NCBI GenBank assembly: GCA_038049695.1
Contig: CP142456.1
Location: 79,569,422-79,633,421 of the forward strand
Reading direction: 5' to 3'
DNA: 64,000 nt
Source of the DNA: Cinnamomum chago
Lineage: Eukaryota > Streptophyta > Magnoliopsida > Laurales > Lauraceae
This document shows positions 26,755 to 62,531 of this stretch, one piece after another; position 1 is the first letter of the stretch; each line of letters begins with the position of its first letter. The notes below the pieces were generated by a model. It was given only the letters and a program-made list of their open reading frames with translations. It ran no database searches and was not told the origin of the DNA. The position numbers were made by a program, and so were the translations under genes.

Positions 26755-27140
26755 TATTGAAAAGTCTACTAACGCCTTAAGGTTTTGGTAGTAATGGTTA
26801 ACTAAAGAAATTCAAGATGGTATCAGAGCCAATCGGTCGTGAGTTCGAATCCCAGGAGGAACGACTCGGCGCAAAAAAAAAAAATGCGTGTCGCCTCAAG
26901 ATGGTATCAGAGCGGGTTCCGATCCCGTTGTTCTTGTGCAGTCCACGTGGACGCTGTTCTTGTGTAGCCCACGTGACAGGCCCGTTCATGAAATCTGTTG
27001 GGCCTGCACGTGAGGGGGAGAGTGTTGGGAAGTCCCACATCCCACATCACCTAAGTAATAGGCTTGTCATGTCTTAATATACCTGTATGGGCCTTCCACC
27101 TATCAGCTTAAGCTTTTAGGTTGGTATATGGTTCCTTACA
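26755..27140 (+). mobile_element. TRIM-like miniature LTR retrotransposon remnant with two primer-site copies
   Basis: The primer-site sequence TGGTATCAGAGC occurs at 26818 and again at 26902. A polypurine tract TGAGGGGGAGAG (27011-27022) is directly followed by a compact LTR TGTTGGGAAGTCCCACAT...TTACA (27023-27140, 118 bp). A diverged partial 5' LTR (GGGGGAATATTGAAAAGTC and the following 60 bp) precedes the first primer site. There is no coding capacity. Order and size fit a TRIM; the doubled primer site and the short 5' LTR show rearrangement. Confidence 0.7.
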
Positions 27141-29955: not shown

Positions 29956-30827
29956 TTAAATTTTTTTTTTATTTTATTCTTTAGAATGGTAGCATCACAA
30001 ACTTCCACCAGAAAGGACTAGCAAGGAGGGATGGATAAGGAGTTTTTGTCCTTCTAATCTGAAGATATTGGTGGAAACAATAAGACTTGGAGAAAATCCA
30101 ATTTTGGTTGACAATTACGTTAGCAAATATATATAAAAGAAAACTATGTATGATGTTGCACCATAATATGCCTATCTGAAAATCTTCTGCTGACAGGATA
30201 ACAGGGTTAGGCCAAAACTGGATATGGATTACATTTTAAGAAAATTCCTTCTACTCTACAATGTGATTTATTTTGGAATCAATGCTCTTTGAAGATTCTC
30301 AACTTTAAGCTTTCACTCACTCTGCCGCGAGAGATCGGAGAAATGGAACTCTATCTAGTGTGGCCTTAGATCATGAGGTTTTTTACCATTGATTTTGGAG
30401 GGTCATTTCTCAATTTAAGATAGATCCATTAGATTTCGAAATCTAACCAATCCCCCTTATTTGAAACTACACTAATAATCTATTGGTTTTGATCGCCAAC
30501 TATCCTAGATGGGCCCCTCAAAAGACAGAAATCACAATAATAGGGAGCACAAGGGCTCAATATATAGATTCTGACTAGAAGCCAAAAAGGGAATAGATTG
30601 CCAAAGATGGTCGATCTTGACATTCCTAGCCAAGGAATGGTCCAGCTTGTGAGTGAGGCCCACCCGCAAATCCCCAAACCATCCACACTTAATGACATTT
30701 CTGGGCCCCAATTGAGCATATAAAATTTGATTCCTCTAATTTCGGCTATTTCTAATGACTAAAGATTGGACAAGTTTGAAGTCCTCAAAACGGCACAGAG
30801 GTGGTTCTCGGTTTTTTGCATCTTGGT
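29956..30827. other. Intergenic DNA, no gene recognised
   Basis: No coding or RNA signal I can support. A minus-strand frame at 30480-30719 has no recognisable family. Confidence 0.4.
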
Positions 30828-31012
30828 GGGAGCAACAAGGATGGTGATTGGTGGCCTAGAAATGCTTGGGTCAAGAATGGTCTCTTATCTCAGTCGCAAG
30901 AGGCGTAAGTTCTTATTTGGTTGTCCAGAGTTCAAACTTGGAACGGTCACCTTCCCCCACCTGAAAGTTGTACTGCCTCTTTTGAACTCTCTTCTCTCAC
31001 CCGAGGGCGCCC
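30828..31012 (+). repeat. 185-bp direct repeat, left copy
   Basis: It runs from GGGAGCAACAAGGATGG to GAGGGCGCCC and matches 34726-34910 with few differences and equal length. It contains GAGTTCAAACTTGG, similar to a pol III B box, so a tRNA-derived SINE is possible but not shown. Confidence 0.85.
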
Positions 31013-32307: not shown

Positions 32308-34725
32308 TCATTGTGTTGGCTTTAAACCCATTCTCCTCGATAAATATAACACTTGATCTATTGGTATACCCTTTGTAAGTTGATCTGCAATATTCTCCTT
32401 TGATTTCACATAATCAATGGAAATAATGCCATTTGAGAGCATATGTTTTATAGTGTTATGTCGACGTCTTAAGTGCCTTGACTTTCCATTATACATATGA
32501 CTTTTAGCTCTACCAATAGCCGCCATGCAGTCACAATGCACACATATGACCGTTACAGGTTGTGGCCATATTGGAATATCTTCCAAAAAATTCTTAAGTC
32601 ATTCCGTTTCTTCCGCGGTTTTATCTAAGGCTATAAATTCTGATTCCATTGTTGAACGTGCAATATACGTTTGCTTTTGCGATTTCCATGATACAACAGC
32701 CCCTCCAAGTGTAAAAACATAACCACTTGTGGCTTTCTCCGTATCATTCGAAATCCAATTGGCATCACTATATCCTTCCAAAACAGGAGGATATTTTGTA
32801 TAATGCAATCCATGGTTTATTGTATATTTTAAGTATCTTAATACTCTAACCAAAGCTTCCCAATGAGCCTTTGATGGATTGCTTGTATACCTTGCCAATC
32901 TATTTACTGTATATGCAATATCTGGTCTTGTGCGATTTGTAATGTATTGTAGTGTTCCAATGATACGTGAGTATTCCAATTGAGATACACTATCCCCATT
33001 ATTTTTCTTTAAATGATATTTAGGATCATAAGGAGTATTACATGGATTACTATCAAATTGACCAAATTTCCGAAGAACTATTTCCACATAATGTGATTGG
33101 CTAAGTACATAACCATCATTACTCCTTTGAATTCGAATTCCTAAGATAACATCGGCCTTTCCCATGTCTTTCATTTCAAAGGTTGAATTCAATATTTTCT
33201 TCGTGGAATTTATTACATCTAGGTTTGATCCCAAAATGAGCATATCATCCACATATAAACATACAATTACACAAGAGCCATTTAAATTTTTTTTAATATA
33301 AATACATTTATCACATTCATTGATCCGAAATCAATGCGATAACATTGTATGATCGAACTTTTCATGCCATTGTTTAGGTTCTTGTTTAAGTCCATATAAG
33401 GATTTTACAAGTTTACACACCTTTTTCTCTTGCCCTTTCACCACAAAACCTTTAGGTTGTTTCATATAAATTTCTTCATCTAACTCACCATTTAAAAATG
33501 TAGTTTTTACGTCCATTTGGTGTATATCCAAATTGTAAACAGCCGCAATAGCAATTAACATCCTATAGATGTAATTCTAGTTACTAGTGAGTATGTATCA
33601 AAGAAATCTAGCCCTTGTTTTTTACAGTAACCTTTTGCTACTAGTCGTGCTTTATATTTCTCAATACTACCATCAGGCTTCAATTTCTTTTTGAAAATCC
33701 ATTTGTAACCTATTGGTTTGCAACCAGGTGGTAAGTCTACTAACTCCCACGTGTTATTTTGTAAAATGGATTCTATTTTGCTATTTATTGCCTCTTTCCA
33801 ATAAATAGATTCAGATGAATTTATTGCTTCTTTATATGTTTGTGGATCAGCTTCAGTGAGAAAAGTTAGAAAATCAGGTCCAAAGCCTTTTGCAACCTTC
33901 ACTCTTTTTCCTCTTCTTGGTTCTATCTCTTTTCTTTGGGTAGATGGTGTATTTTCATTTGATTCCAAGTCCTTGTCTTGTACTCCAGATGATGAAGCAC
34001 CATCATTATCGTGACTTAAATCATGCAACTTTCTTTTATTTCCATTGAGACTGTCCTTGTATGAAAATATATGCTCAAACCATTCGGCATCATTAGACTC
34101 AATGATGGTATTTACTTGGATATCCGAAATTCCAGATTTAAATACTAGAAATCGGTATGCCGCACTATTATTGGCATATCCAATCAACACACAATCAATA
34201 GTTTTAGGTCCAAGTTTAACTCTCTTTGGTAAAGGAACTTGAACTTTTGCTAAGCAACCCCACACTTTCATAATTTTAAAAGCCAGTGGTTTCTTATACC
34301 ATTTTTCATTTGGAGATTGATCACTCCTTTTTGGTGGAATTCTATTCAAGATTTTGTTAGCAGTAAGTAGAGCTTCACCCCAAAAATTTAATGGTAAGTC
34401 TGAGCTACTAAGCATAGAATTCATCATGTTCTTCAATGTTCTATTTTTACATTCAGCCACCCCATTTTGTTGAGGAGTGTAGGGTGCTATCGTTTGGTGA
34501 ATAATTCCATGAGAAGCACAAGATTCTGCAAAAGCATTGGATTCATATTCTCCACCTCTATCCAATCGCAGTATTTTGATCTTTTTGTTTAATTGATTTT
34601 CCACTTCAGCTTTATATTTCTTAAACATATTCAAAGCTTCATCTTTGCTATGTATTAAATATATGTAACAATATTTACTACTATCATCTATGAAAGTAAT
34701 GTAATAATTCTTTCCTCCACGACTT
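32308..34725 (-). pseudogene. Copia polyprotein remnant: integrase core, RT, RNase H
   Basis: Read right to left. The integrase core has D (FIDDSS), D ([10 protein letters not shown]) and E (QQNGVAEC). The RT has the [24 protein letters not shown] and [10 protein letters not shown] motifs, the last being the YVDD catalytic centre. RNase H has [18 protein letters not shown]-type context, [11 protein letters not shown] and ADQLTKG. Breaks: frameshifts near 33560 and 33300, and a Trp-to-stop change at about 32597 before LKNFLEDIP. Such proteins copy and integrate retrotransposon RNA; this copy cannot make the full product. Confidence 0.9.
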
Positions 34726-34910
34726 GGGAGCAACAAGGATGGTGATTGGTGGCCTAGAAATGCTTGGATCAAGAATGGTCTCTTATCTCAGTCGCAAGAG
34801 GCGTCAATTCTTATTTGGTTGTCTAGAGTTCAAACTTGGAACGGTCACCTTCCCCCACCCAAAGGCTGTACTGCCTCTTTCGAACTCTCTTCCCTCACCC
34901 GAGGGCGCCC
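34726..34910 (+). repeat. 185-bp direct repeat, right copy
   Basis: Same sequence as 30828-31012. Here it continues into CACCTCTTCCGAGG, which is not present after the left copy. Confidence 0.85.
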
Positions 34911-35648: not shown

Positions 35649-35904
35649 ATTATAAAACCAGGATATAGTTGTTTGAAAATATGCAGTAAGTGAGCTTGGT
35701 CATGGGCCAAGAATAAGTATTAGCTTCCATTGCTATTTGATTCAGTCCAAGACAAGTGGGCTCGTCTTGGACAGACCCAAGTTTCACTCTAGAATTAAAG
35801 GGGTGGGCCCAAGATCAGAACGTCCAGAATCCGGATTGTTGCATGCACCGTGCAATGCATCTATATTACTAAGGGAATGTAGTCTCCATTCGTTTAACCA
35901 CAGA

Positions 35905-36274
35905 GCCCACATCGCATGGGTCCATTACATAATGGGTATCCGGTGGGTCCTCCTTCGGATCCACGGATCGGATGGGTTATCGGGTGGCCCACTTGGGTCC
36001 CGATATCAACGCAATAAACTGAATGGCCCAAACAATGACTGAAACTTAAAAAAAAAAAAAAATTCTCGCTTCTTAACTGTTTCCTAAAACGCGTACTCTT
36101 CATTTCTCTGATCAAACGTTGGATGTTTGGCCCACCTTGCACAGGTCCATCACCTACTGGGTTGCCCATGGGTCCTCCTTCAAATCCACGGATCAGATAG
36201 GTCATCGGGTGGCCCACCTGGGTCATGTATCAACACAAGAAACCGAATGGCCCAAACAATGACTGAAACTTAAA

Positions 36275-36305
<31 letters not shown>

Positions 36306-37637
36306 ATTCTCAATTCTTAATTGTTTTCTAAAACACGTACTCTACCTCTCTCTGATTATAAGCAGGATGGTGGGCCAAACATGGCCCACATCACAAGGGT
36401 CTATCACATAATGGGTCTCCGATAGCTCTTCCTTTGGATCCATGGATCAGATGGGTCATCGGGTGACCCACCTGGGTCCCGGTATCAACGCAAGAGCCCA
36501 TTAAAAAAAAAAATTCTCGCTTCTTAATTGCTTCCTAAAACACATACTATCCCTTTCTCTGATCAGACGTTGGATGGTGGGCTAAACAGGGCCCACCTTG
36601 CACGGGTTCACCACCTACTGGGTCGCCCATGGGTCCTCCTTCGATCCACGGATTAGATGGGTCATTGGGTGGCCCACCTGAGTCCCAGTATTAACGCAAG
36701 AAACTGAATGGCGTAAACAATGACTAAAACTTAAAAAAAAAACAAAAACAAACAAACAAACAAACAAAAATTCCTAATTCTTAATTGTTTCCTAAAACAC
36801 GTCTTGTCCCAATATTAACGCAAGAAACTGAATAGCGTAAACAATGACTAAAACTTAAAAAAAAAAAAAACAAACAAAAATTCTCAATTCTTAATTGTTT
36901 CCTAAAACACGTCCTGTCCTTCTCTCTGATCAGACTCTGGGCCCACCTCGCACGGGTCTACCACTTAATGGGTCCCCGTTGGCTCCTCCTTCGGAGACGC
37001 TGGTTGGCCCACCTCTTAAGGGTCCACCACCTAATGGGTTGCCGGTGGGTCCTCCTTCTGATCCACGGATCAGATAGGTCATCCGGTGGGCCACTTGGGT
37101 CCCGGTATCAAGTATCAACGCAAGAAAATCAAGCGAAACAACTGTATGGTCCAAACAATAACTTAAACTTAAAAAGAAAATTCCAACTTCTTAATTGCTT
37201 CCTAATATAAGTCCTCTCCCTCTCTCATATTAGACGCTGGATGGTGGGCCAAACAGGGCCCAAATTGCACGGGTCCACCACATAATGGGTCCCTAGTGGA
37301 TTCTCCTTCAAATCTACGAATCGGATGGGTCCTCCGGTGGCTTACCTGAGTCCCAGTATCAACGCAAGAAATTAAATAGACCAAACAATAACTGAAACTT
37401 AAAAAAATTAATAAAATTTACACTTCTTAACTGCTTCCTAAAACACGTACTCTCCCTCTCTCTGATCACACACTAGATGGTGGGCCAAACAAGGTTCACC
37501 TCGCACGGGTCCACCACCTACTGAGTTACTTATGGGTCCTCCTTCGGATGCAAGGATCAGATGGGTCATCGGGTGACCCACCTAAATCTCAGTATCAACA
37601 CAAGAATGAACCGTATATAGCACGGGGTATTGCTAGT
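35905..37637 (+). mobile_element. Tandem array of about 200-290-bp units ending in a Helitron-like 3' terminus
   Basis: The marker GGTCCTCCTTCGGATCCACG recurs, with variants, near 35945, 36171, 36428, 36630, 37047, 37311 and 37536, plus an extra partial near 36985. Each unit has a GGTGGGCCAAACA part, a GGGTGGCCCACCTGGGTCCC part, CAACGCAAGAA, an A-run and a CTAAAACACGTACT part. The array stops at CCGTATATAGCACGG (a short hairpin), then GGTATTG, then CTAGT followed by T, which matches the Helitron 3' rule (hairpin, CTRRT, host T). No helicase is encoded and the 5' TC end was not found. Confidence 0.6.
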
Positions 37638-41864: not shown

Positions 41865-44800
41865 TTAAAAGAAGAATTAAGGGGTGCATCTAGTTACCCA
41901 TGATCCTTTCTTTGTATAATGTATCAAGCATTGATAGGCCACTTTGTAAAATCTAGTCGATTGGGCAATTCTAATCACACAAGTATAGACTCACTAAAAG
42001 AGTGGTTGTTACTAATGTTTTAAGATGCATTATTTATTTATTTTTATAATGAATTTGAAGAAATGCACAGCCACAGTCTTTGATACTAATCTTAATTTTA
42101 TTATTTTTGGGTATAAAACTCAGCAAGATGTCCAAAATCAAAATAACCATATTATATATTAATGACTATTGCTTAACTGGTTAGAGACATACTGTCATTG
42201 TTGCATGTGTTTAAGCCTTTTTTCGAAGGCAAAAAGGAGATTAAGAAAGAAACACTATCAAACAAGGGAAGTTGAACAATAGTACGTACGTACACACACT
42301 CTTACCCTCGTACATTCCATAAGATGACAAAAAGACCAACTCTCATTTCCTCGACGTCCCATGGAGGGGGCGGAGGAAATGGGAGAGTATAGTCCTGAAA
42401 AGGTAGAAAGTAACTTTGTACTTCTATGGACGGAACAATAGCTCTTATTATTATTTGATCCAACTCCATGCATGACTGCACGACGTACATAGCCTCCAGA
42501 GTCTATATGACCTATGACCCTCACTCTCTTTTTTCTAGTAAATCTCTGAAAACAGAACTTCTCTCGAACTTAGATACTCACTAATAAAAAGTTATAAAAC
42601 TAACCAACCACTAAAATCTCTCTATCATTAAACTAAGAACACCAAATAAAACATAAATAGAATGTAATTATTATCGTCAAAAATGTATTTTTGGTCTAGC
42701 TCGTGCTGGGTGTCTAAAGTGTAAGTTCGAGTACAAGTACTTTATCATTTTAGGAGAGCAGTTTATATTAAAACGAAACTAAACAGCACTTTGTTTTTAA
42801 TGTAAAAAGAACTTACAGTTTGAAGGCAGGAAAACAGTGCTCTGATGCTGTAGTTAGTAGATCAGATATTCGCTGATGATCAACGCTAGTGTTAACACTA
42901 TGTCCTTAAGACAAAATTCGCCCCCGCAATGGTGCTTACGAGTTTCAATGGCTTCTGTCTCCCAGGATACAATGATCTGTATCACAACAGTTGCAGCACT
43001 ATAAACTGTGTGTCTGTCGAACCAACTTGTGTATAAATACTCTCTCTTCTTGACTCAATGCAAGTGCAGCAGCAGCAGTGAAAAATGAATGACCAAAACA
43101 GCATGAAACGAGATGAATTTATAGCCTGCAATCAGGTCTCTTCACAGGGGTTGCAACTCTTAGGACTGGTTGCATCTCTTAGGACTAGGGTCACACCCTT
43201 TCATATATGAAAGGGCACACACCCCTTAGGGACACACCTCTTGGGACACACCCCATTTGAAAAAGGAAATTTTATTTATTAAATAAAGTTTCTCCAAAAA
43301 ATTATAAATGGGTAGTGGGCCGAGTCAGGCCCAACTCATGTGTGAAGCCCAAGCCCAAGCCCAGGCCCAGGTTCGGTGCGGGGCGGGGCGGCACGCGCGA
43401 GTGTGTGGTGGTGACCCTACCTTGATCTAGGTCCTCCCTCCCCCACAAAAGTGGGGTGCCCCTTGGGGCTCATCTTATACTACCAAGGTAAGTATATTTA
43501 TACCCAAGGGATGTTTTGCTCACAAGCAATGTGGGATCCAAGTTTACCACTTCCTTTTGTTTCCATGTTTAACATGTTCAAGTAGTGGTGTAAATGAGGC
43601 AATTTCTCATTCATTTCTTAATGGATTAGAGCAACCCAATACATGTTCTCAATCTACTCATGGAGTAGATTACATTCCCATGTATTCCCACCTAAAAAGA
43701 CAAGTGGGTCCCACGTTTATTTTGGCTCACAGATGACCAAAATAATGGGTCTTTCTAACCATTTTTCCAACAATCCCCCACATGAATGAAATTGACCGAA
43801 TGCAATGAAATGATATGCAGACACACAGAGAGAGTACAGTTTGAAATTTTCTGTATAGAGAGAGGTAGCTTGTGGCCTTGAACCTTCCCTTGTGAAGTAT
43901 TATCGGATTTACTGGTTGAACAGTGAACATGATGTCTTGAACTGTTTAGCCTTTTACGTAAATCGAGACAATAGAGTTCACACAGAATCTTTTCGGACAC
44001 AATTGGTTCTCATGATTGTGTTCATTTTGGCCCTGAACAATACCTGGTTTCATGAGTGCTTTAGAGAATTTAGCCTTATTATTCTCATAGAATCGGCCCA
44101 GTTCACACTCACATAGGTGATTCTTATTAAGAGTATCCTGCTATACCCTATCTGATTAACCAAGATATAAGAATCATTAAAAGCTTTGCTTACCCTAATT
44201 ACCGCTACAGGTATCACTTATTAATATCATAGGAATGAGCAGGAGATTTCGTCTCCATAGTGATATCGTTAAGTCACACACAATTCGGTTGTCCCTTTGA
44301 ACCCAGATCTTGGGATCTCCAGTCAACTAGGTTGGGTTACCATTATGGTGACTTTTCATTCGTAGGCTTTAAGCCCATTCCCCTCGATGAACGATTTACT
44401 TGCTCTCTCGTTAATCCTTTGGTTAACGGATTCGCAATGTTATCTTTGGACTTTATGTACTCAATTGTCATAATGCCATTAGAGAGCAGTTGTTTCACGG
44501 AATTATGCCTTCGACGAATATGTCGAGACTTACCGTTATACATTGTACTTTGTGCCCTTCCAATTGCTGATTGACTATCGCAATGAATGCAGATAGGAGG
44601 CACAGGTTTTGACCACATTGGAATACTTCGAGGAATTGACGAAGCCACTCAGCTTCTTCGCCAGCTTTATCCAATGCAATAAACTCAGATTCCATAGTGG
44701 ATCTAACAATGCATGTTTGTTTAGAAGATTTCCATGATACCGCTGCACCACCAAGTGTAAATAGATATCCACTTGTGGACTTTGAATCTTTAATATCTGA

Positions 44801-47800
44801 TATCCAGTTGGCATCACAATAGCCCTCAAGTACAGCTGGATATTTAGAGTAATGTAAACCATAGTTTTGTGTGTATTTTAAATATCTTAAAACCCGAACT
44901 AAGGCCTTCCAGTGGTCTGATCCTGGGTTACTTGTGTATCTACTCAATTTACTAACAGCATATGCAATGTCAGGACGAGTGCAATTCATCACATACATTA
45001 GGCTGCCAATTATTTGAGCATATTCTCGTTGTGATATGCCTTTTCCATTATTCTTGGATAAATGAATACTAATATCTATAGGTGTCCTTGCTGGATTGCT
45101 ATTATCTTGATTATATTTTTTTAGTATACTCTCAATATAGTGTGATTGAGATAATATCAATCCATCTGATGTTTTAGAGATCTTTATCCCGAGTATGACA
45201 TCTGCAACACCTAAATCTTTCATGTCAAACTTATTGTTTAACATTCTCTTGGTAGATTTAATGATATCAGCATTACTACCCATAATGAGCAAATCATCAA
45301 CATATAAACAAATAATGACACAGCCATTGTTAGTGTTCTTGACATATACACATTTGTCACATTCATTGATCTTAAACCCATTTGACATTATCAAGTTGTC
45401 AAATTTCTCATGCCACTGCTTTGGTGCTTGTTTTAATCCATATAGAGATTTGACAAGCTGACAAACTTTCTTAGTTTGACCTGGAACATTAAACCCTTCT
45501 GGTTGTTCCATATATATCTCCTCGTCTAATTCACCATTGAAAAATATTGTCTTTACATCCATTTGATGTATCTCGAGATTGTATATAGCAGCAATTGCTA
45601 TTAACATTCGAATGGATGTTATTCTTGTCACTGGTGAATAAGTATCGAAATAGTCCAAGCCTTCTTTTTGTCTGTACCCTTTAACAACAAGCCTGGCCTT
45701 GTACTTATCGATTGAGCCATCTGCTTTCAACTTTCTCTTGAATATCCACTTGCATCCAAGAGTTTTGCAACCTTGTGGGAGGTCTACAAGTTCCCATGTA
45801 TGGTTTTGCAAAATGGATTCAATTTCACTGTTTATGGCTTCTTTCCAATATGGTGCCGCGGGACTGGACACTGCTTCTCTAAAGCTTTGAGGCGCATCTT
45901 CCAACAGAAATGTTAGAAAATCTGAACCAAACGTTTTTGATGTTCTAGCCCTCTTACTCCGTCTAGGTTTATCAATCTCTTGTTGGTTTTGATTACTGCT
46001 ACTAGCAGTGTCATAAGTTCTTTTATGAGAACTCGTTTCCTTCGATGATTTGTAAGGAAATACATGTTCAAAGAACGATGCATTCCTTGACTCAATAACA
46101 GAGTTCGGATGCATATCGGAAATTTCAGAGTTGTGAATTAGAAACCGATACGCACTACTATTATGAGCATACCCAATGAATACACAGTCTACTGTTTTTG
46201 GTCCTATTTTAACCTTTTTAGGTGTAGGAACGCCACTTTAGCCAAACACCCCCACACTTTTAAGTATTTGTAAGTAGGCATTCTGCCTTTTCACAATTCA
46301 TAGGGGGTTTTATTGGTTTTCTTTTGAGGTATTCGATTGAGAATATAATTTGCAGAGAGGATTGCATCCCCCCACAAATTCTGAGGTAATCCAAAACTTA
46401 TTAACATAGCATTCATCATTTCTTTTAAAGTTCTGTTTTTCCTTTCAGCAACACCATTTTGCTGAGGTGAATAAGGAGCAGTAGTTTGGTGTATAATCCC
46501 ATACTGTGAACAAAATTCACCAAAAGGTGATTCATATTCACCACCTCTATCGCTTCTTATCACCTTAATTTTCTTATCAAGTTGATTCTCAACCTCATTC
46601 TTGTAATATTTGAACATTTCCAAGGCCTCATCTTTACTTCTCAATAAGTAAACATAACAGTATCTTGTGCAGTCATCAATGAATGTAAGAAAATATTTCT
46701 TACCACCTTTAGTTTGAACAAACTTCAGGTCACAAATATCAGAATGAATTAATTGAAGAGGTTCAGAAGTTCTTTCAATAGATTGAAAAGAAGTTCTAGT
46801 AAGTTTAGCTTCTACACATGTTTCACATTTGATATTTGAATCAAAACTACATTTAGGCAAGCATTCCATGTTAATTAATCTACGTAATGCATCATAATTA
46901 ACATGGCCTAATCTACCATGCCACACATTAGAAGACTCAAGCAAATAAGCAGAAGGATTTTTCTTATTACGTACAGTTGTCATTACATTCATTTTGAAGA
47001 GCCAATCGCTCATATACCCTTTTCCCACGTACATCCCAGATTTAGTGAGTACAAACATATCCGACTCAAATACAAGTTTGAAACCCTTCTTACTCGGTAG
47101 TGAGCCTGATACCAGATTCTTACAAATATCAGGTACATGCAGCACATTGTTGAGGGTGAGTTCTTTTCCAGAAGTCATCTTCAATACCACCTGTCCTTGG
47201 CCTTCAACCTTAGAGGTGGCAGAGTTGCCCATGAAGAGTTGTTCTCTAGTTGATGCTTGATAAGTGGAGAACATCTCTTTAATGGAGCAAACATGTCGAG
47301 TGGCCCCTGTGTCCACCCACCATTATCTAGTGTTACCAACCAGATTGACTTCTGAGACCACAGCAGAAACCTTGATGTCTGAAACATCAGTGGAGAGAGT
47401 GTCCAATTCTGTCATGTTGGCCTGCGCAGGTTTCTTACTTGTATTGCCTTTGTCCTTGCGCTTACGACAGTCCTTAGCACGGTGGCCTGGTTTGTCGCAC
47501 ACATAGCATTTCCCTTTGAACTTCTTGTTGTCATTGGGACCTTGTTTTGGACCGTTGGGATTGTTCTTCCTCTTTTTGGGATTCTGCCCATGTTCCACCA
47601 CATTTGCCTTCGCTTCAGTGAAGGTTTTTCCTGCTTTCTTTTCAGAAGCACGATTGTCTTCCTCTATCCTCAATCTTACTATCAGGTCTTCAAGTTTCAT
47701 CTCCTTTCGTTTATGCTTGAGGTAGTTCTTAAAATCCTTCCAAAGTGGTGGCAATTTTTCAATGATTGCTGCCACTTGGAAAGACTCACTAAGAGACATT

Positions 47801-50800
47801 CCTTTTGCATGTATTTCATGGAGGATTACTTGAAGTTCCTGAACTTGATTGATAACCGCTTTGGAATCGTTCATCTTGTAGTCAAGAAATCTGCCAACAA
47901 CGAATTTCTTCATTCCGGCATCTTCAGTCTTGTACTTTTTATCAAGTGAATCTCATAATTCCTTAGCAGTCTTCAATGAACAGTACACATTATATAATGT
48001 GTTGTCTAGTCCATTGAGAATGTAATTTCGACAGAGGAAGTCAGCATCCTTCCAGGCTTCTACAACAGCAACTACTTGCTTGTCTGTTTCGCCTTCTTTC
48101 AAAGCAGGAGCTTCTTTATGGAGGAACCTAGCCAAGTTCAGGGTGGTGAGATAGAACAACATCTTCTGTTGCCATCTCTTGAACTCAGTCCCATTGAATT
48201 TTTCAGGTTTCTCCTCATGGTTCACCATAACAGGGGTAGGGGTAGTGACTGGAGTATTCTTCTCAATACCCATGTCTGTTTTAACATAACAGAAATCACT
48301 TAAAAAGAGTATACTACAGAATTTAAACAACTAATAGTACTGTAAACAGTAACTCAGACTATAGGTAACCTGTAACTGGTTACTGAAGACTGAGGCAAAC
48401 AGAATACAATTTACAGAACAACCTGAAGTTCTGTAACTAAGTGTATATGAAGAATGAAAATCAGTTTTACACTACTAGCTTCAGAAACAGAAGAAGAAGA
48501 AACCAGTAGAAAACTGACACAAACCGAAACCAGAAATACTGAAGTAAACAGAGCACAGAATGTACTCAGAACTTTTAAAGAATTTTTGTCTTAAGATTGT
48601 AAATTCGAGTACAAGTACTTCAGCATTTAAGGAGAGCAGTTTATATTAAAACGAAACTCAACAGCACTTTGTTTTTAATGTAAAAAGAACTTACAGTTTG
48701 AAGGCATGAAAACAGTGCTCTGATGCTGTAGTTAGTAGATCAGAGATTCGCTGATGATCAAGGCTAGTGTTAACACTATGTCCTTAAGACAAAATTCGCC
48801 CCCGCAATGGTGCTTACGAGCTTCAATGGCTTCTGTCTCCCAGGATACAATGATCTGTATCACAACAGTTGCAGCACTACAAACTGTGTGTCTGTCGAAC
48901 CAACTTGTGTATAAATACTCTCTTCTTGACTCAATGCAAGTGCAGCAGCAGCAGTGAAAAATGAATGACCAAAACAGCATGAAACGAGATGAATTTATAG
49001 CCTGCAATCAGGTCTCTTTACAGGGGTTGCAACTCTTAGGACTGGTTGCATCTCTTAGGACTAGGGTCACACCCTTTCATATACGAAAGGGCACACACCT
49101 CTTGGGACACACCCCATTTGAAAAAGGAAATTTTATTTATCAAATAAAATTTCTCCAAAAAATGGGTAGTGGGCTGAGCCAGGCCCAACTCGCGTGTAAA
49201 GCCCAGGCCCAGGCCCAGGCTCGGCCCGATGCGGGGCGGGGCGTGCGTGTGTGGTGGTGACCCTACCTTGATCTAGGTCCTCCCTCCCCCACAAAAGTGG
49301 GGTGCCCCTTGGGGCTCATCTTATACTACCAAGGTAAGTATATTTATACCCAAGGGATGTTTTGCTCCCAAGCAATGTGGGATGCAAGTTTACCACTTCC
49401 TTTTGTTTCCATGTTTAACATGTTCAAGTAGTGGTGTAAATGAGGCAATTTCTCATTCATTTCTTAATGGATTAGAGCAACCCAATACATGTTCTCAATC
49501 TACTCATGGAGTAGATTACATTCCCATGTATTCCCACCAAAAAAGACAAGTGGGTCCCACGTTTATTTTGGCTCAAAAATGACCAAAATAATGGGTCTTT
49601 CTAACCATTTTTCCAACATAAAGTATTTTTGGTTTCATCTTGTATAGACGGCCTAAATAATGACGTGTTTTTGTCTCCAGTTTTATACTTTCCTCTTGTT
49701 GCTTTTGCTTACTGCAGGTCGTCATATGCGTTGTCAAAGTTGGTCCTCTTGCTTGATATTGTTGGAGGTGGAAAGTAATCAATTTTGTATAGAGGGTTTC
49801 CCTACCCTTTTCTCGTGGGGGCTCAGCCCCCTAATCCTCTAGTGAGCAGAGTAAATTTCGGGTGAGGTGGGGGAACCCCCTGGTAAAGGGGAATTGACAT
49901 ATCTAAGTGAAGTAGCACAGCCTTGAGTACTATTTTCATTGAGAATAACCAATCATCATCATTAATCTATGTGTACAACTTTGTTTATCCCATTCAAAGA
50001 TGTGCTTTATACCAACTGATGCTGTGCACTTCATTAAATCATTCCTTGCTCAATACAAATTTCTTCAAGCTGATCTGAACTGTCATGAAATCTTTAATCG
50101 AATAGTCTACCTCGGTTACTAGTGGACTCCATGGGCGACAATTATGCCTCTCTCTGTTTCACAATCTAACTGGTTATTAGGCAATAGATGTATGCTTAAC
50201 ATTGGATTTTGCATTAGAAATTCTCTCTCTCACACACACACATATATGTATGAATATAAGATCAACTAATTCAAGATCCTTGTATATCTATGCAGCGGTG
50301 TATAATATCTGAGCACATCAGCTTGTTGAAAGGGAAGGTGAGATTCTAAACTCTGTAGCCATCAATTTCTGTGAGAAAACATAGCAAACTGAATGAATAA
50401 AAGATGTCCAAGTCGGCCAAAATTGACCTATGAAATGAGCATGGAAAAAACATCTTTATTTTTAAGAATGTTCATTAGTGTTTTCTTTTAAGACTTGTTT
50501 GTACAACAATAGGAATCCAAACTTTAGGGATGACATTTCTCCAACCCCTGGAAATTGATATCCTCTCCATCAAAGAAAATCAATTCGTTTTCTTTTCTCA
50601 CAATGAAAGTGTGTTGCACCATACAATAGAACAATAGGGTACATAGAAAATCAGAATAGTCTTCCTTTTTATTGTGGAATTTCTCATCAAACAAACACGT
50701 CTTTAGTTGCAAATGCACCCCTTTCTTTTTGGCATTTACAAATACACTCGAGTTTTTCACAATCACAAAGACAATTCTTGTTTTTCTTGCATCCTCAAAT

Positions 50801-62519: not shown

Positions 62520-62531
62520 TGGTATCAGAGC
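62520..62531 (+). promoter_or_regulatory. Primer-binding site of the third Copia element
   Basis: TGGTATCAGAGC, complementary to the 3' end of initiator tRNA-Met, directly follows the LTR. Confidence 0.9.

Follow-up and report, generated by a model that had tools for sequence, protein, structure and literature searches.

Joint change of a primer-binding site and an LTR motif in Copia families of Cinnamomum chago predicted to prime from their own RNA

Self-priming has been predicted for TAR, a lineage of plant Copia elements, by Neumann et al. 2019 (PMC6317226). As given in the accessible text of that paper, the criterion is that the LTR complements, over at least 10 bp, a sequence that begins 0–5 bp past the 5' LTR. 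In Tf1 and Tj1, a 5' segment of the mRNA that is complementary to the primer-binding site acts as the primer, according to the available part of PMC4600332. The fungal Copia element GalEa is without a primer-binding site, and the portion of PMC5445492 that is available records that no LTR complement to its conserved hairpin site was found. Within the accessible parts of the open-licence literature, no experiment testing plant Copia elements for self-priming was found, and the available TAR text (PMC6317226) yielded no case of related families in which site and LTR motif had changed together. Here, we compare with these systems a Copia element from a 64,000-nt stretch of Cinnamomum chago DNA, which is called the window below.

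The window element and its borders

The element under study lies on the minus strand and is made up as follows.

42720–49618, minus strand: Copia element under study, target duplication (TSD) TAAAG
48598–49618, minus strand: 5' LTR, 1021 nt, TGTTGG..TTTACA, from the LTR–LTR alignment
42720–43772, minus strand: 3' LTR, 1053 nt, from the LTR–LTR alignment
43773–48597, minus strand: internal part of the element
42715–42719, no strand: TSD TAAAG on the element's 3' side, from the LTR border comparison
49619–49623, no strand: TSD TAAAG on the element's 5' side, from the LTR border comparison
43773–43784, minus strand: polypurine tract CATGTGGGGGAT preceding the 3' LTR
47323–48273, minus strand: gag region with Retrotran_gag_2 and a CCHC knuckle, broken by an in-frame stop (Pfam)
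46291–47322, minus strand: gag-pre-integrase and integrase core (rve) (Pfam)
44495–46237, minus strand: RVT_2 reverse transcriptase region, in a frame that differs from the upstream pieces (Pfam)

The two LTRs are identical at 989 of 1021 aligned positions. The original prediction had set the LTR borders by the TAAAG duplication; both TSD copies and the TG..CA termini were found, and the borders are directly supported. Pfam domains run in the order gag, rve, RVT_2 on the minus strand, with the integrase upstream of the reverse transcriptase (RT), the arrangement that defines Ty1/copia. The Ty3 order, RT before integrase, by which Tf1/sushi elements are recognized, is not that of the element. 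In-frame stops and the use of more than one reading frame in the coding region indicate that the window copy is not intact; it is a degenerate member of a plant Ty1/copia family. No relatives turned up in viral contigs when these were searched at the protein level. Elsewhere in the window, 35812–37605 holds diverged tandem repeats, spaced mostly ~200–250 nt apart with some larger intervals.

Complementarity in the window copy and its relatives

The candidate pairing partners and the sequence around them are listed below.

48596–48597, minus strand: spacer AT, two bases, from the LTR end to the primer-binding site
48584–48595, minus strand: putative primer-binding site CTTAAGACAAAA; pairing reaches 48579 past a bulged A
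48783–48797, minus strand: proposed self-primer GAATTTTGTCTTAAG in the 5' LTR, with GGGGGC before and GACA after, from the sequence and the family alignment
42905–42919, minus strand: 3' LTR copy of the self-primer motif
48765–48778, minus strand: TAGTGT-TA-ACACTA, potential hairpin just 3' of the motif, from the sequence

The exact 12-nt complement of CTTAAGACAAAA, TTTTGTCTTAAG, occupies positions 825–836 of the 5' LTR (48783–48794), 185 nt before its end, and occurs a second time in the 3' LTR (42905–42916). Beyond one bulged A, GAAT/ATTC lengthens the pairing in the window copy. The original prediction had described this complement, its start two bases into the internal part, its distance from the LTR end and the extension past a one-base bulge, and the coordinates and the single bulged A were recovered as described. 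It had also held that no TGG-type tRNA complement follows the 5' LTR. Consistent with this claim, TGGTATCAGAGC, the primer-binding site letters for tRNA-iMet, is absent after the 5' LTR of the window element with up to two mismatches allowed. Two TATA-like sequences lie upstream of the LTR motif and suggest that it is probably inside the transcript leader. Among the copies, the stem letters of TAGTGT-TA-ACACTA vary less than the loop in a by-eye comparison.

Exact TGGTATCAGAGC is present elsewhere in the window, on the plus strand at 26818, 26902, and 62520; at 26818, it is followed by the tRNA-like letters GTTCGAATCCC, and at 62520, it is preceded by TTTTACA, which resembles an LTR end. A gene scan of the 64-kb window returned no tRNA genes.

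A tRNA or half-tRNA could prime this family, as in Bianca, Osser, and Bryco, with the LTR copy being a mimic or an accident. The best candidate tRNA match is presumably the anticodon loop of Leu(UAA) tRNA, with the letters CUUAAGA, which the palindromic CTTAAG would fit. Half-tRNA priming is known in plant Copia elements, as stated in the accessible text of PMC6317226. However, the window element has no iMet site, and if a tRNA were the primer, there would be no reason to expect any complement in the LTR.

The complement might instead reflect chance or the common low complexity of an A+T-rich stretch. First-order Markov LTRs contained a complement of at least 12 nt in 35 of 20,000 cases, or ~0.2% for one element, which leaves chance some room for the window copy. 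Control 20-nt windows of the internal region reached 12 nt in 0 of 957 cases and 11 nt in four. By itself, the complement in the window copy is moderately improbable and suggestive, not decisive; the case is convincing because of the relatives, and it is the family comparison that carries the weight.

The genome (1.06 Gb, 14 contigs) was searched at the DNA level for further copies, and 40 of 776 candidate places were scored. Thirty copies, including that in the window, were fetched as family A. A 3' LTR match was obtained for 24 of the 29 relatives, and a script found an exact 5-bp TSD for 13. The spacer AT stands before the site in all 29 family A copies, right after CA in 27 and after TA in two. 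The complementarity persists in the family: an exact complement of 10–15 nt is present in 20 of the 29 fetched relatives, a count biased toward conserved copies because the query held both sites. Its length is 15 nt in eight relatives, 14 nt in eight, 13 nt in two, 12 nt in one, and 10 nt in one; the shorter complements measure 9 nt (two relatives) and 7 nt (seven). The eight 15-nt complements are uninterrupted, and the bulge of the window copy is not general.

The nine copies with complements below 10 nt fall short because motif or site differs at one or two positions. Three of them (L006, L009, and L029) have an altered motif in the 5' LTR and an intact one in the 3' LTR, which indicates that the 5' motif changed after insertion. 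The site is altered in L012, L015, and L026, and L012 also has an altered first motif base in its 5' LTR; in L024, the 5' LTR motif is altered and the 3' LTR is truncated. L010 and L019 have a mismatched motif in both LTRs and an unchanged site, a pattern implying that, in their latest round, priming and rewriting of the site did not strictly depend on their own motif. A copy can apparently arise with a mismatched motif of its own, which trans priming or repair to the template site would allow. The motif is altered in the 3' LTR only in L005, L008, L013, and L016.

Mean column conservation over the 30 copies is 0.988 for site plus spacer and 0.85 for the next 12 columns; the internal stretch from column 475, which includes those 12 columns, has a value of 0.963. 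Within the aligned internal stretch, variability peaks at the site border that faces the primer's 5' end, as would be expected if the site were rewritten from a primer of limited length. Among 588 12-nt windows of family A, the motif ranks 101 and the site ranks 40 in conservation; neither stands out in a leader block that is well conserved throughout, and conservation by itself does not mark the motif.

Site and motif in a related family and in outgroups

Related elements were sought with an RVT_2 profile. Of 16,771 candidates, 150 were listed, and the RT pieces of 40 were fetched. The RT tree has 42 rows (these 40 pieces plus two from the window, namely the element under study and a second Copia fragment) and covers the elements of one genome. 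One clade, with 96/97 support, unites the window element, the second window fragment, and six elements that we call family B (L075, L076, L079, L094, L096, and L097), whose RT is 68–70% identical to that of the window element. L098 and L099 are the sister group of the clade containing the window element. The six family B elements were selected on RT only.

In all six, the LTR end CA is followed by AT and then by TTTAGGACGA; the LTR borders come from matching 5-bp flanks in L097, L075, L096, and L079. The family B LTR carries the motif TCGTCCTAAA, preceded by GGGGGCGGAAC and located 160–169 nt upstream of the LTR end in the five copies measured; L076 likewise has both site and LTR motif. As in family A, the motif follows a GGGGGCG block, and in an alignment that includes three family B copies, it coincides in position with the family A motif, downstream of a common TTGTATCCTGGG block and the G-run. 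Positions 1–10 are paired in every family B copy. At positions 1, 5, 9, and 12, both sides are changed relative to family A and are still paired in all six, whereas position 11 is mismatched in five of six. The joint replacement of both partners at the homologous place is thus observed directly. In a swap control between the window element and L096, pairing with their own LTRs extends over 12 and 14 nt, respectively, and pairing with exchanged LTRs over 7 and 7 nt. Head-to-tail arrays of RVT_2 matches with ~5.45 kb spacing occur at G000:C5:21564560-21636143 (at least 14 matches) and G000:C7:25056752-25101037 (at least nine). One RT piece was read per array (L076 and L094, respectively), and both belong to family B.

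These comparisons bear on both alternatives raised above. In family B, found through its RT alone, all six copies have a complement of their own at the homologous position, and the 14-nt pairing of L096 was equaled in 0 of 5000 random LTRs. The 10-nt pairings of L097 and L075 were matched by 44 and 37 of 5000, respectively. We therefore consider a chance origin extremely unlikely. Priming by a tRNA or half-tRNA is confronted with a family that has a different site and, at the homologous place, an LTR complement of its own, and we regard it as very unlikely.

Eight elements from the 34 tree rows outside the clade plus the family of the L122 RT piece served as outgroups. Six of the eight (L098, L099, L070, L068, L086, and L093) have an iMet site, allowing one mismatch, and in these six the longest complement to the 600 nt upstream is 5–7 nt; comparison with the 3' LTR confirmed the LTR end of L098 and L099. 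The primer-binding site was unreadable in the fetched stretch of the other two, L122 and L065. Because site and motif changed together in family B, the swap control shortened the pairing, and the iMet outgroups match their upstream sequence over at most 7 nt, the best explanation, which we hold to be probable, is that this Copia family starts reverse transcription from a piece of its own RNA. The central claim of the original prediction, that the element may prime from its own leader, thus gains support from co-variation of site and motif between two families of one clade. The pattern that it had named as contrary evidence, retention of the site with loss of the LTR complement, is not a family pattern in either family, although single mismatched copies exist.

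The second window Copia fragment (30.8–34.7 kb, minus strand) offers a third family. It has no 5' LTR and no site, and its 3' LTR contains the homologous block with GGGGCGAATTTCTGCTATAGGACG. This third motif gives a ready test of self-priming, since it predicts the site of its family: under the self-priming model, CTATAGCAGAAATTC should stand after AT in intact copies, and LTR ends of this family would then be followed by CAATCTATAGCAGAAA. Twenty further RT pieces included no third-family member; 15 belong to family B, two to family A, and three to neither. The fragment, whose RT is ~70% identical to that of the window element, is flanked by a direct repeat of 186 nt (94.6% identical).

30827–31012 and 34725–34910: copies of the 186-nt direct repeat around the second fragment

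The repeat is unlike the fragment's LTR and may be a long duplication from insertion or repair.

Leader folding, proposed mechanism, and known systems

Folding of the leaders was predicted with ViennaRNA. Motif–site pairing in cis had no weight in any of the 30 copies, and its presence in the lowest-energy fold was not supported by the predictions for the 30 leaders. Twenty-one copies, that of the window included, have 12 standard motif–site pairs, and the remaining nine of the 30 were set aside. Forcing these pairs carries an energy cost of 4.1 kcal/mol for the window copy and of 9.0–22.8 kcal/mol for the 20 others. In 20 of 30 copies, the lowest-energy fold instead pairs the motif with a CTGGGAGACA stretch inside the LTR, ~60 nt upstream of the motif at 48783–48797. 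If self-priming is right, annealing would probably depend on a second RNA molecule, on cleavage, or on nucleocapsid acting as a chaperone.

This folding within the LTR also favors a reading in which the pairing serves leader structure, dimerization, packaging, or circularization and the real primer is something else, as do the position of the motif in a conserved leader, the neighboring possible hairpin, and the palindromic CTTAAG. However, one partner lies exactly two bases past the LTR in both families, which is the position required of a primer, and no iMet site occupies that position. The palindrome is missing from TCGTCCTAAA of family B, and dimerization by the palindrome is therefore not a common feature. 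We judge this reading unlikely.

In the self-priming mechanism that we propose, the primer would be a 14–15-nt segment of the LTR-derived leader, GAAUUUUGUCUUAAG, between the G-run and GACA. This segment would anneal to the site two bases past the 5' LTR, cleavage would free the primer 3' end, and the primer would then be elongated across the AU spacer and on into the LTR. Inferred are the role of the pairing in priming, transcription of the leader, the position of the cut, and which RNA molecule, the same or another, supplies the primer. Tentatively, and with more doubt than confidence, we suggest that the internal 14–15-nt leader segment is cut on both sides and acts mostly in trans, such that rewriting of the site from the primer in each round would keep site and LTR motif of a family matched and would let families move to new primer sequences together, independently of tRNA.

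Joint change of both partners is stronger evidence for self-priming in plant Copia elements than a prediction based on complementarity. If self-priming is true, it would point to a replacement of tRNA priming within a Copia clade of this one genome. As far as the available literature goes, the only match for TTAAGACA as a primer-binding site is, by its title, a sugarcane microsatellite paper.

Among the known systems, Tf1/sushi elements resemble the window element in that the primer-binding site has its complement in a stretch of leader, as the accessible text describes them. They are Ty3-type, with the primer at the mRNA 5' end, whereas the window element is Copia-type and its motif probably lies inside the leader. 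The original prediction had cited Tf1-type elements as its precedent; the likeness stands, but they are not the sole precedent, since the available text of PMC6317226 already predicts self-priming for the plant Copia lineage TAR. Bianca, Osser, and Bryco are plant Copia elements that, in the accessible part of PMC6317226, have no site for a tRNA 3' end; the window element shows no iMet site after its 5' LTR. The sites of the three lineages match a half-molecule tRNA, whereas the partner of the window element's site is in its own LTR. The window element resembles TAR (REXdb; including Houba and Osr-1), Ty1/copia elements with predicted self-priming, in the complement, which in the window element spans 12 nt and starts after two bases. 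The window element would therefore belong to a predicted kind of self-priming that is already known, to which the co-variation of site and motif adds evidence.
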